Shown: positions 8,419 through 40,199 of the stretch, piece by piece | How positions within the stretch are numbered: position 1 is the first letter of the stretch | How the letters are laid out: each line of letters starts with the position of its first letter | Source of the DNA: Luteolibacter sp. Y139 | GTDB lineage: Bacteria; Verrucomicrobiota; Verrucomicrobiia; Verrucomicrobiales; Akkermansiaceae | DNA length: 64,000 nt | Assembly (NCBI RefSeq): GCF_038066715.1 | Contig: NZ_JBBUKT010000005.1 | Coordinates: 372,001-436,000, forward strand | Direction of reading: 5' to 3' | Notes under the pieces: generated by a model | What the model was told of the DNA's origin: nothing | The model's database searches: none | What the model saw: the letters and a program-made list of their open reading frames with translations, nothing else | Program-made: the position numbers and the translations under genes

Positions 8419-8877
8419 ATATCTCGGTGAAATCCAAGCCTGCTTTTCGGGAAAAGCGGGGCGGCTTTCTTCCCGATTTCACCCGGAGCTGCAAGCGAAT
8501 TTTCGGGGCGGGTTTGCCGGTGTTTGCTGCGATCAAAGAAGGGAACGCTCCGGTCCATCGGGCATTTCCCGGCATGGATCGGACCTTTGGTCCTCGAAGC
8601 GTGTGGCATTCATTTCCTAGGCCTCGCGGCCCAGGCTGGGATGGAGCGGGCCCTTGGCCCTGAACTTGATCTCATGCGTGCAACGGTGGGAAAGCCGGGA
8701 TTTGCCCTGCAGTCCAAGGGGCCTGCGGCGTTCATTCTGCACGGTCGTGGGGTTTTCCCGGGGACTCGTGAATCTACGTTAGATGCGCGTTGACCGCTTG
8801 GCGGCAAATGGTTAGAAGCGCTTGAATACCGGGGAGTCGTGACTGACGGGCTCCTCCGGGTGCAACCCTTCCCGCCC
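8419..8877. other. Intergenic region, no feature recognised
   Basis: About 460 bp between tRNA-Pro and the large Rhs-like gene. Short frames exist on both strands but none has a recognisable domain or a credible start. It should contain the promoters for the leftward tRNA and the rightward rhs-like gene; I could not pick a convincing -35/-10 pair. Confidence 0.4.
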
Positions 8878-16354: not shown

Positions 16355-16447
16355 GGGCGTGGCGGGGTGAAGGCCCGGGAGATTGGGAAAGTTAGACCGG
16401 CGTGATGATGATTTTCGATCATTGATGGAAGCACGGGGCTGCTCCCG

Positions 16448-16541
16448 TCTCGCTGCCCTTCAGGCCGCCGGGGCTGGCGCAATGGGGACCCCGGGCGATG
16501 CCCGGGGCTGAGGGATTTCGCACCGTTGGCGCTTAAAGGCA
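16448..16541 (-). repeat. ~90-bp hairpin repeat, copy R5
   Basis: Shares the layout cccttcaggccgcc .. ccccgggc-n4-gcccgggg .. ctgaggg .. ccgttggc with the copies at 32291, 32930, 39921 and 40101, in the same orientation as 32930. It lies just downstream of the leftward psd gene. The T-tract seen in R1 and R2 is lost here (gacccc instead of aaaacccc). Nothing else is recognisable in the 16355-16639 gap. Confidence 0.75.
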
Positions 16542-31005: not shown

Positions 31006-32256
31006 ATGAGAACCAGTCTTCTTGCGACCGCATTTCACGCCGCCCTGGTGGCCGGCGCGTTCGCCCAGGGCCGCGGCGAGGTGCCGCTGATGCGCCCGGA
31101 GGAAGCGGAAACGGTGCAGCGCCAGTCGATGGAATTCATCGACGCGGTGCGCCCGTCCGTCCGCCCCGTGGTCCCGTCCACGCTATGGGTGTGGGCGGAT
31201 ACCGGCTATGGCCTGCGCTCGGTGGCCTACGGCACCGTCGTCCAAGACGGCACCAAGGCGCTGACCAAGTGGAGTGAGATCGCGATGACCCGCGGCCCGA
31301 TCAAGGTCGTGGGTGGCGATGGCACCACGGCAACGGCCACCGTGATCGGTGTCTATCAGGAGGAGGACCTGGCCCTGCTCCAACTGAAGGGTGCGAGCTA
31401 TCCGGCGGTGAAGCTGACGGATCGCGAAGCGCCGAAGCTGGGCCATTTCCTGATCGCCGCATCGCCGGATGACACGCCGGTGAGCGTGGGGGTGGTGGCG
31501 GTCGAGGCGCGTTCCTTGCGCGAAAAGGACCAGGCATTCCTGGGCGTGATCGCGAATACCGATCCGCCAGCGAAGGGCCTGAAGATCGAGGATGTCGAGA
31601 AGGGCAGCGCTGCAGCCCTTGCGGGTCTTGAGAGCGGCGACCGCATCCTTGCGCTCAATGGCCGCACGGTGACCAATCTGGTGGAGCTGAAGTCGGTGCT
31701 ATCCGGTTTTCACCCGGGGGATAAGATCGCGATCCGGTATCTCCGCAAGGGTGCCGAGGCGACCGCCAATGCCGAGCTCAAGGAGCGGAACGTGGACTAC
31801 CCGGAGATTCCGAATGGCCGCCTGCGCCAGATGGAGCGGATGGGCGCGGATGAAAAAGGCCTGAGTCTGGTGCATGAGGGATTTCCCAGCGTGATTCAGA
31901 CCGACCTGCGCGTCGGCCGCGAGCAATGCGGCGGGCCGGTGGTGGATCTGGATGGCAATGTCGTGGGAATCGGGATCGCGCGTGCGGACCGTACGCGGAG
32001 TTTTGTGATTCCGGCGAAGCATGTGATCGATCTGTTGTCACGCGAGCCGGTTTCCCCCGAGGTCGCCCAAGCGGCGATGGAGGAGGAAGAGCAGGCGAGA
32101 CAGCGGCAGGTGGGTCAGAACATGCCACCGCAGCAGCGGGTTCCGCGCGCGGTGCCAGCGCCACCGGGGGCGGCGGAGAATCTGCGGCATCACCTGGAGG
32201 AAATGGAGAAGCTGATGGACCGGATGCGGGCGGAGATGGATGGGCTGGATGAGTGA
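31006..32256 (+). CDS. Inactive-looking HtrA-like protein with internal PDZ domain
   Basis: 416 residues with a signal peptide ([22 protein letters not shown]). A trypsin-like first lobe (residues ~60-175) lacks the catalytic His: the region reads TKWSEIAM. An Asp remains at 121 (EEDLALLQL). A PDZ domain sits at ~178-260 ([20 protein letters not shown]), and only then comes the serine-region motif, as [18 protein letters not shown] with Cys308 in place of Ser. So the PDZ interrupts the protease fold and two of three triad residues are changed. The C-terminus is Glu/Gln/Pro-rich with a helical Met/Glu end. Probably a binding or regulatory partner of the active protease before it (inference). 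Confidence 0.8.
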
Positions 32257-32290
32257 TCCAATGTGCTTCGCTTCGTGAGCAACAGGTAGA

Positions 32291-32382
32291 GTTCTTCAGG
32301 GCCAACGGCCCACGATTCCTAAGCCCCGGGCAACGCCCGGGGTTTTTCGTGCGTGGGGGATGGCGGCCTGAAGGGCTGCGAT
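32291..32382 (+). repeat. ~90-bp hairpin repeat R1 (terminator-like)
   Basis: Order: cttcagggccaacggcc, agccccgggcaacgcccgggg, tttttcgtgcg, atggcggcctgaaggg. The central stem CCCCGGGC/GCCCGGGG with a 4-nt loop and T5 is an intrinsic terminator for the + strand, right after the HtrA-like gene (stop 32256). Outer arms (cttcagg.. and ..cctgaag) are also complementary. Confidence 0.85.
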
Positions 32383-32461
32383 ATGGGTGCGGTTTGTCTT
32401 CTAACCAAGGCCGGAAATGGGGTTCCACAATCCCTGCAGATTTACGATTGTGACATCCACG

Positions 32462-32914
32462 ATGCCACAATCGCTCTCTCGCATTCTGATCCATTTGGTC
32501 TTCAGCACAAAAAACCGGGAACCTGCTCTATCAACCGCACTTCAGGCCGAGCTTCATCCCTATCTTGCGGGAACATTGGACAGTATGGATTGCCCGTCTT
32601 TGCGCGTGGGTGGAGTCGGGGATCACGTGCACATGCTATTCGGCCTTTCACGCACCAAAACGATTGCTGAGGTCGTCGAGGCGGTGAAGACCTCGTCATC
32701 GAAATGGATTAAATCGAAGGACGCGCGATTGTCCTCGTTCCATTGGCAATCCGGTTACGCCGCATTCTCCGTCAGTCAATCCGATGCCGATCAGGTGGTG
32801 GCCTACCTTGCGAATCAGGCGGAGCATCATCGCAAGCGGACGTTCCAGGAGGAATACCGGTTGTTGCTGGAAAAGTATCAGGTGCCGTTCGATGAGCGGT
32901 ACGTTTGGAATTGA
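32462..32914 (+). CDS. IS200/IS605-family Y1 transposase (TnpA, RAYT-like)
   Basis: 150 residues from the ATG at 32462 (MPQSLSRILIHLVFSTKN). HUH single-strand nuclease/transposase: the metal-binding His pair is HVH at 55-57 (VGDHVHMLFGL), and the likely catalytic tyrosine is Tyr115 in QVVAYLANQAEHH, with the conserved Gln119. HWQSGYAAFSVSQSD is the usual family segment before it. It looks intact, with no frameshift or stop. The length fits an IS200-like TnpA, but its flanks are dispersed repeats rather than IS ends. Confidence 0.92.
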   Translation: MPQSLSRILIHLVFSTKNREPALSTALQAELHPYLAGTLDSMDCPSLRVGGVGDHVHMLFGLSRTKTIAEVVEAVKTSSSKWIKSKDARLSSFHWQSGYAAFSVSQSDADQVVAYLANQAEHHRKRTFQEEYRLLLEKYQVPFDERYVWN

Positions 32915-32929
32915 GGGAGCCGCTCACGT

Positions 32930-33020
32930 ATCGCGACCCTTCAGGCCGCCATCCCTGCGCACGAAAAACCCCGGGCGTTGCCCGGGGCTGAGGGATTTCA
33001 GGCCGTTGGCCCTGAAGAAT
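32930..33020 (-). repeat. ~90-bp hairpin repeat R2 (terminator-like)
   Basis: The reverse complement matches R1 nearly base for base through the central stem, the T5 run, tcgtgcg, and the outer cttcagggccaacggcc / atggcggcctgaaggg segments; differences cluster in two ~5-10 bp patches. Oriented as an intrinsic terminator for the leftward hemQ gene (stop at 33076). Confidence 0.85.
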
Positions 33021-33075
33021 GAGCGTAGCGGGTCTCTGTGACTGCGCGGGCCGCGTGGGATTGATCAGCCCCACC

Positions 33076-33903
33076 TCACAAACACACCCGGCGGAACAAC
33101 TCGTCCAGCGGCAGCTGCATGCCGATGTAGAAGTCGCCGAATTCGGCGTAGCGGGCGGAGACTTCGTCGAAGCGCATTTCGTAGACGATCGACTTGATGT
33201 CGATGGTGTCCTTGGCGAGCAGGGTGACGCCCCATTCGTATTCATCGAGGCCGGTGGAGCCGGTGATGAGCTGGAGGATGCGGCCGGAATAGGTGCGGCC
33301 GACGCGGGCGTGGCCACTCATCAATTCGCGGCGTGCTTCGTAGGACAGCGAGTACCAGTTGTCGGCACCGCTGCGGCGCTTGGACATGGGGTAGAAACAG
33401 ATGGCGGGCCAATCCGGCAGCACCGGGTAGAGGCGGTGCTTGAGGTAGTGCGCCATGCGCTCCTCGAATTCCTTCATCGCCTGTTCGAATTCCGCGCTGC
33501 CTTCGGTGAGACCCTTTTCGCCGATCAGGGTTTCGGCGGCGTATTGCGCGGAGGTGGTGGTGTATTCCGAGCTCTCGGTCATCGAGAGATACGAATACGC
33601 TGGGCTGAGGATCTCCGGCCCGAGCGAAAGCGTGAGCTGCTTTTCATAGGCCGTGGCCACTTGCAGGTCCGGCGTAAGGAGCATGAAGCCGATGTCCGCC
33701 TTCGGGGTGGCGATGGCGAAGGTCAGCAGGTGGGTGTCCTTGGTGGCGCGGATTTCCTGGACCAGTTCGGTGAGGCGGGTCTTGGCCGCACGCTTCTCGT
33801 CATCGCCGAGCAGGGACCACTGCGAGTGGTCGATTTGATAGAAGAGGTGCATCACGTGCCAGCCTTCGCGTGACACCAGCGGGGAAACATTCGAATCGGA
33901 CAT
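33076..33903 (-). CDS. hemQ: Coproheme decarboxylase (HemQ/ChdC)
   Basis: 275 residues, chlorite-dismutase superfamily. Last step of the coproporphyrin-dependent haem pathway: decarboxylation of coproheme to haem b. CFYPMSKRR supplies the catalytic Tyr171 and Lys175 (spacing as in characterised enzymes). NWYSLSYEARRELMSGHARVGR carries the proximal haem ligand His198. ITGSTGLDEYEWGVTL and YEMRFDEVSARYAEFGDFYIG are near-signature segments. Supplies haem for the c-type cytochromes assembled by the ResB/CcsA genes in this window. Adjacent (2 bp) to the upstream membrane-protein gene. Confidence 0.95.
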   Translation of the reverse strand: MSDSNVSPLVSREGWHVMHLFYQIDHSQWSLLGDDEKRAAKTRLTELVQEIRATKDTHLLTFAIATPKADIGFMLLTPDLQVATAYEKQLTLSLGPEILSPAYSYLSMTESSEYTTTSAQYAAETLIGEKGLTEGSAEFEQAMKEFEERMAHYLKHRLYPVLPDWPAICFYPMSKRRSGADNWYSLSYEARRELMSGHARVGRTYSGRILQLITGSTGLDEYEWGVTLLAKDTIDIKSIVYEMRFDEVSARYAEFGDFYIGMQLPLDELFRRVCL

Positions 33904-39920: not shown

Positions 39921-40017
39921 CTTCTCCAGCCCCAACGGGGCGGCAAGCCCTCAGCCCCGGCCAACGGCCGGGGTTTGTGAATGGCCATGATGGCGGCCTG
40001 AAAGGTCGCGAGATTGG
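39921..40017 (+). repeat. ~90-bp hairpin repeat R3
   Basis: Same layout and direction as R1: ccccaacgggg, tcagccccggccaacggccgggg, tttgtgaatg, atggcggcctgaaaggtcgcga. The central stem differs in sequence from R1 but keeps its pairing (compensatory changes). Lies 30 bp after the small zinc-binding gene. Confidence 0.8.
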
Positions 40018-40100: not shown

Positions 40101-40199
40101 CACGTCTCGCGTCCCTTCAGGCCGCCGTGCCCTGCGCACGAAAAACCCCGGCCGATGGCCGGGGCTGAGGACTTGCCGCGCCGTTGGCGCTTGAAGGCA
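40101..40199 (-). repeat. ~90-bp hairpin repeat R4
   Basis: Inverted relative to R3, 83 bp away: tctcgcgtcccttcaggccgcc, tgcgcacgaaaaaccccggcc, gatggccggggctgagg, ccgttggcgcttgaagg. It ends 20 bp before the stop of the leftward small membrane-protein gene and has the A5/T5 tract that makes it a terminator for that gene. R3-R4 form an inverted pair without a transposase. Confidence 0.8.

Follow-up and report, generated by a model that had tools for sequence, protein, structure and literature searches.

Positions 32291-33020 of the window (the whole 64,000-nucleotide stretch of Luteolibacter sp. Y139 DNA analysed here) carry a transposase gene between inverted copies of a dispersed repeat, which raises the question of what kind of enzyme this is and whether it moves the repeat. 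An earlier note on this DNA had read the locus as a REP-associated tyrosine transposase (RAYT) and the probable mover of the local repeats.

A Y1 transposase gene between inverted repeats

The tnpA reading frame (32462-32914, + strand; open from 32417) is intact and encodes 150 aa that match Pfam Y1_Tnp at E 1.3e-22, with the HVH motif (H55-V-H57) and Y115 in place as the earlier note had described. Alignment of 52 family members (A5; the window enzyme and 51 others, taken from the 76 loci with a readable frame among the relatives described below) shows H55 and H57 to be invariant and Y115 nearly so. An AlphaFold2 model of the protein (pLDDT 89) finds its best Foldseek match in ISDra2 TnpA (E 9e-8), with IS608 TnpA also among the nearest and E. 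coli RAYT (4er8) at rank 30 of the matches (E 1e-4); judged by the Pfam and fold matches, this is a Y1 HUH transposase with a predicted HUH fold and a catalytic tyrosine. The gene is present once in the 7.1-Mb genome, the second-best match standing at E 0.61, and so the many near-identical copies that the earlier note had named as a case against its reading are absent. There is no tnpB in the unit.

Enclosing the gene are inverted arms (32292-32358 against 32953-33019, 88% complementary; 32357-32392 against 32920-32955, 86% complementary), which the covariance model described below matches on opposite strands as two copies of one repeat, R1 on the left (32292-32387, + strand, 100.1 bits) and R2, inverted, on the right (32925-33019, - strand, 100.4 bits), both of them training copies of that model; the placement of tnpA between inverted copies is thus borne out. 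Upstream, a + strand gene (31006-32256) stops 35 bp short of R1; from its sequence it is presumably PDZ/serine-protease-like. Downstream, a - strand gene (33076-33903), presumably HemQ/chlorite-dismutase-like, has its end 56 bp away from R2. A search of Rfam gave no match up to E 1 within 31900-33300.

A repeat of three hairpins

R1 is composed of three hairpins, all on the + strand: H1 (GGGCC-AAC-GGCCC, 32299-32311), H2 (CCCCGGGC-AAC-GCCCGGGG, 32324-32342), with a terminator-like TTTTT directly after it (32343-32347), and H3 (GCGGCC-TGAAG-GGCTGC, 32363-32379). Their counterparts in R2, on the - strand, lie at 32933-32949 (H3), 32969-32987 (H2) and 33000-33012 (H1). Used as a blastn query against the genome, R1 hit 37 places at E<=1, and the 30 aligned share a common architecture of TTCAG, H1, AATCCCTCAG, H2, a variable spacer, H3 and GAKAC (a consensus, with variants), in which the loops are of AAC- or AAA-type in H1, AAC/ATC in H2 and TGAAG-type in H3; a T-run after H2 is frequent in the own copies and missing from some. 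Copy L025 was left out of the resulting alignment (A1) because of an insert. Across 29 own copies, 97.6% of cells are paired (99.3% in H1, 99.6% in H2 and 93.6% in H3), as against 27-51% in slid structures, and 9 of the 19 pairs show changes on both sides; covariation also extends to 114 distinct copies taken from 25 further loci, in an alignment fitted to the model. What had been taken for a dispersed hairpin of ~90 bp is therefore indeed a dispersed repeat; pairing and covariation resolve the single hairpin into three.

The covariance model R1 was built from those 29 own copies, five of which are the strong copies of the window, whose scores are thus high by construction. Up to 150 candidates were scored per genome here and in the orientation and 22-genome counts below, so that all these counts are lower bounds; 67 of the 150 scored in the own genome match at E<=0.1, 53 of these at more than 54 bits, and 24 of the 53 lie outside the training set. 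The genome-wide count, which had been proposed as a check, therefore comes to at least 53 strong copies, below the more than 100 that REPs usually reach according to PMC2817692. The transposase-free relatives that the earlier note had placed at 16448, 39921 and 40101 are all recovered: a solo copy at 16444-16539 (- strand), and the left (39922-40017, + strand) and right (40101-40197, - strand) arms of a doublet. A weak, degenerate copy (29 bits) lies at 8573-8667 (- strand). The CGTC-tagged REPs described in PMC3733652, which have no known transposase, are comparable in that CGT[C/A]TC precedes H3 when the hairpin is read from the opposite strand; they differ from the present repeat, which has 6-bp stems without AT foot pairs, forms a three-hairpin unit and flanks a transposase.

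An enzyme of the subclass 1.2 type

Table 1 of Quentin et al. (2018, PMC6006769) gives TnpA_Y1 subclass 1.2 the signature DH[IV]H, WQ and Y...Q..HH in about 148 aa, and that paper adds a conserved C-terminal tail of ~30 aa, low copy number and closeness to IS200 enzymes; there the subclass is listed with REP 'no', is said to be one that 'does not share IS properties', and comes mostly from Cyanobacteria and Bacteroidetes. The window TnpA is alike in all the positive marks, with DHVH, WQ and YLANQAEHH in 150 aa, a tail conserved in A5 and a single copy in its genome (1-11 copies in the order-level genomes that have the enzyme), and the class-2 Y...NP motif is absent, YLANQAEHH standing in its place. 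Among 77 readable family members (the window plus 76 of 80 related loci), Y...Q..HH is found in 74 and DH[VI]H in 60; L047 (frame) and L048, L071 and L097 (stop) were dropped from these motif counts and kept in the flank counts. By published motifs, then, the sequence matches the subclass 1.2 type. It differs in coming from a family with more phyla and with a cognate three-hairpin repeat, both flanking and dispersed, such that the 'no REP' listing does not hold for this family.

A tree of 44 rows places E. coli rayT and three further Y1 genes of the own genome on one side of a branch (100/97) and the window enzyme outside it, and gathers six IS200-type enzymes and one ungrouped Kovacikia row into a clade (100/96). 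The window family lies between the RAYT and IS200 groups, next to the IS200 clade and with Bacteroidota plasmid and MAG rows interspersed; as branches are long, the root of the tree and the monophyly of the family are tentative. The GT[AG]G tag is seen beside none of H1, H2 and H3 on either strand (consensus of the 29 copies, by eye). With motif, tree (a check that the earlier note had itself proposed) and tag all against it, we reject the RAYT label.

The repeat borders related enzymes in other genomes

Related loci, taken as the best 80 of 395 in a collection of 84,980 species genomes, come from records labelled Verrucomicrobiota, Planctomycetota, Acidobacteriota, Chloroflexota, Bacteroidota and more; some are near-identical, and hence not independent. 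An R1-type repeat lies inverted on both sides within 200 bp at 58 of the 80 (+ upstream, - downstream), upstream only at 10, downstream only at 8 and on neither side at 4. Within the first 150 bp, 61 '+' against 8 '-' matches are found upstream and 62 '-' against 12 '+' downstream, a signal that fades with distance, and the nearest copies in the expected orientation stand at median gaps of 12 bp upstream and 9 bp downstream. A model-free test for inverted flanks (positive if the score is >=30 and above all 100 shuffles) was positive at 61 of 78 testable loci (two were too short), as against none of 17 hemQ loci (one of 18, L119, was left out of this control) and 4 of 141 shifted positions; of the 17 loci that failed, three beat all shuffles and scored <30.

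Four of 246 records from a plasmid search cover >=80% of the query, and the two at 41-45% identity are both from Bacteroidota. The Persicobacter enzyme (45% identical) has inverted flanks with an R1-type match; the Bernardetia enzyme (41%) has inverted flanks without one. The Bernardetia flanks (L156, 1386-2064) belong to another, AT-richer inverted repeat of 32 bp with 94% complementarity, which suggests that repeat types differ between clades.

Dispersal and co-occurrence

A search at E<=1e-4 took in 22 enzyme-bearing genomes or records, picked for a spread of labelled phyla. At least 8-124 repeat matches were counted in 15 of them and 2-6, perhaps just the copies adjoining the enzyme, in six; G217 (Bacteroidota) gave no repeat match at this threshold. 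One Planctomycetota MAG (G214, the genome of locus L105) carries at least 124 R1-type repeats among its 150 scored candidates, on both strands.

A survey of 189 genomes from the order to which the window belongs (enzyme at E<=1e-15, repeat at E<=1e-6, with 22 repeat candidates scored per genome, which makes the counts lower bounds) found the enzyme in 113 and the repeat in 96: both in 82, enzyme only in 31, repeat only in 14 and neither in 62 (Fisher p 1e-13, which ignores kinship). The comparison of repeat with tnpA presence, as called for in the earlier note, thus comes out in favour of co-occurrence. Loci were obtained from 30 of the 31 enzyme-only genomes, and 23 of the 29 that were long enough for the flank test (one was too short) have inverted flanks above all 100 shuffles, with at least a weak R1 match (E<=0.1) at 19 of the 30, which indicates that the model misses diverged repeats. 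Partial enzyme matches occur in three of the 14 repeat-only genomes, and no enzyme match was found in G109 (7 repeat matches) or G036 (21 repeat matches; 86% complete). The earlier note had set down abundant repeats in relatives without the transposase as counting against it, and these 14 genomes, one with 21 matches, are to that extent on the opposing side; given enzyme-only and repeat-only genomes, the association is strong but not strict.

The same place in relatives

The protease-like gene and the hemQ-like gene also stand side by side and convergent in 13 of 17 further genomes from the genus, their aligned ends 8-520 bp apart, and because they adjoin one another there without tnpA the unit is absent from this spacer in all 13. 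The remaining four hemQ loci are non-comparable (G117 is rearranged, one meets a contig end, and two have no protease gene in the stretch). None of the 17 holds a tnpA, and the repeat model finds two matches in them, a degenerate copy in G117 (44 bits) and a weak one in the G100 spacer (20.7 bits, E 0.001).

In G117, the nearest relative compared (~2.0 of 7.5 Mb covered), the protease gene is followed by an R1-type copy (89.9 bits) and then by a tnpA-leader-like sequence (score 30, against <=24 in 1000 shuffles) with no tnpA, and hemQ adjoins the degenerate copy. Between the own genome and G117, the protease-like and hemQ-like genes have swapped partners with both flanks of the own copy L007; as the partners were exchanged at repeat copies, both breakpoints fall at repeats. 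Gene order in the two genomes is seen to differ exactly at repeat copies (window 32256-33076; L168, L215 and L007), with two junctions swapped. Three sites could be compared with G117, of which one keeps its copy (L008) and two are without; no model match lies between the genes flanking the 16444 copy, nor at the site of the 39922/40101 doublet. The compared part of G117 yielded no exact empty site for any solo copy, and the exact ends of such copies are not recoverable because the spacers of relatives are too diverged.

Gene context and orientation to GC skew

With genes taken from a simple codon-based caller, none of the 53 own strong copies lies inside a called gene, 31 of the 49 for which the caller gives a gene on either side sit in convergent spacers, and the gene on the H1 side points towards the copy at 46 of 53. 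Local GC skew, read along the repeat, is negative at 49 of the 53, and the four positive copies are each one arm of an inverted pair. Leaving out the eight copies that form four inverted pairs (set aside after the skews had been seen), the skew is negative at 45 of 45 solo copies; this includes all 25 that lie between convergent genes, where gene direction does not account for the orientation. A like bias is found in the same genus, at 12 of 13 copies in G117 (13 of 22 repeat matches, those inside the stretches compared) and 20 of 23 in G100 (all 23 matches at E<=1e-3), and a weak one in distant genomes, at 14 of 19 in G006 (p 0.06; 19 of 20 matches used) and 17 of 27 in G049 (p 0.25; 27 of 45 used). 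The leading strand is usually G-rich, and if this applies here the lagging-strand template would carry the complement of R1. Orientation that follows replication is also described for IS200/IS605 elements in a review (PMC5371812). We regard the orientation to GC skew as the strongest clue to mechanism.

The same data bear on the idea that the repeat is an intrinsic terminator, or another extragenic structure kept by selection, and that a transposase just happened to land between two copies. Such a role would fit the H2 hairpin and T-run of many own copies, their absence from called genes and the direction of the upstream neighbour, and we think it unlikely: 58 of 80 loci have whole inverted copies to either side of the enzyme, at a median of 9-12 bp, which excludes a chance landing; the T-run is missing from some copies; and the 25 solo convergent copies share one orientation to GC skew at sites where the direction of a terminator would be indifferent. 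As this orientation is left unexplained, we reject selection for termination as the sole cause.

A probable REPtron-like unit on a class-1 enzyme

Drawing these observations together, we consider it probable that R1, tnpA and R2 together form a REPtron-like unit, in which the enzyme is of class 1 and most likely acts on the cognate repeat at its borders. Because it sits between mirror copies of a dispersed repeat, the enzyme likely spreads that repeat, and its co-occurrence with the repeat points the same way; the earlier note's 'probable mover' would thus be right, as would the arrangement that it described (tnpA enclosed by inverted copies of an extragenic repeat that is also dispersed), with the exception of the enzyme, which is no RAYT by the features compared. 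We suggest that a single-strand-specific TnpA would recognise the repeat when it folds on the exposed lagging-strand template, presumably the G-rich strand, i.e. the complement of R1 as read, with Tyr115 making the cut next to the hairpins; what is then pasted into single-stranded gaps at forks could be a single copy, a doublet or the whole unit, the surviving copies being those in intergenic spacers, often convergent ones, such that solo copies and doublets would represent non-autonomous forms. H2 with the T-run behind it may in addition terminate transcripts of upstream genes, either as a by-product or as the reason that copies are kept. By analogy with IS200/IS605 and RAYT systems, a cognate enzyme-repeat pair acting on single-stranded DNA would be the simplest account.

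It is very unlikely that the unit is instead an ordinary member of IS200/IS605 (subclass 1.1) that differs in its ends, a reading which would draw on the NCBIfam IS200/IS605 transposase model NF033573 (59.3 bits, just above the cut-off of 55) and on ISDra2 and IS608 TnpA as nearest solved folds. Against it stand the single copy in this genome, ends dispersed without the gene, Y...Q..HH and the conserved tail, published marks of 1.2 and not of 1.1, and the distance of IS200-type enzymes, which are ~25-30% identical to the window TnpA among the plasmid matches listed and, in the case of the six in the tree, form their own clade (100/96). Polar chromosome marks such as KOPS and Chi offer another parallel, in which the orientation of the copies would be selected and the enzyme would be a captured passenger; the uniform orientation of the 45 solo copies is what such marks would show, and yet strong copies number only about 53 over 7.1 Mb, two of three sites comparable in G117 lack theirs, and the repeat stands on both sides of the enzyme in 58 of 80 loci, all of which makes this reading more improbable still.

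The unit that we favour resembles RAYT/REPtron systems (class 2) in having a Y1 HUH enzyme between inverted dispersed extragenic palindromes, along with doublets and solo copies, and differs in its class-1-type enzyme (no Y..NP), the missing GT[AG]G tag and a repeat of three hairpins and about 96 bp in place of one 20-40 bp palindrome. With IS200/IS605 elements (IS608, ISDra2) it shares the fold, the metal and tyrosine residues and a replication-matched orientation; it differs in its single copy, inverted-repeat ends, gene-less dispersed ends and lack of tnpB in the unit. The statement in the earlier note that RAYT arrangements are mainly described in gammaproteobacteria is dated, GTAG repeats being known in the verrucomicrobium O. 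terrae (PMC3733652). Among the openly licensed PMC papers that literature searches listed, no title or abstract start reports a repeat cognate to subclass 1.2.

A subclass described as without IS features or REPs thereby gains a testable substrate in a conserved cognate repeat, the REPtron arrangement would not be limited to class-2 enzymes, one mover is offered for a dispersed hairpin repeat of several phyla, and the orientation signal makes strand-specific insertion testable from genome sequence alone. We lean, if only slightly, towards the wider view that all subclass-1.2 Y1 enzymes form a third and ancient kind of REPtron over many phyla, with three-hairpin populations of their own, replication-strand-specific insertion, and copies that also serve as gene-end hairpins and rearrangement points.

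Other Y1 genes and repeat arrays

That one of the three further Y1 genes in the genome moves the repeat instead, as a class-2 enzyme (true RAYT), is the least probable reading of all, as no R1-type copy lies within about 1.5 kb of any of the three, L115 and L116 have other inverted repeats, those of L115 being dispersed in their own right (29 matches in the genome, including the query), and in other organisms it is enzymes of the subclass 1.2 type that have R1-type repeats at their borders.

Both loci lie outside the window, on contig G000:C5. L115 (about 287.3-290.5 kb) encodes a class-2-type Y1 enzyme with NHIH and YIAENP, flanked by GTGG-tagged palindromes in an arrangement of class-2 type; compared by eye contig by contig, this repeat and the R1 repeats mostly lie on matching strands. 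L116 (about 247.2-250.4 kb) encodes another, with NHVH, YIRRNP and 31-bp inverted flanks of its own. Elsewhere, at L033 (1270-2785) and L093 (2122-3446), the enzyme is adjoined by arrays in which + and - copies mostly alternate, in the manner of BIME clusters.
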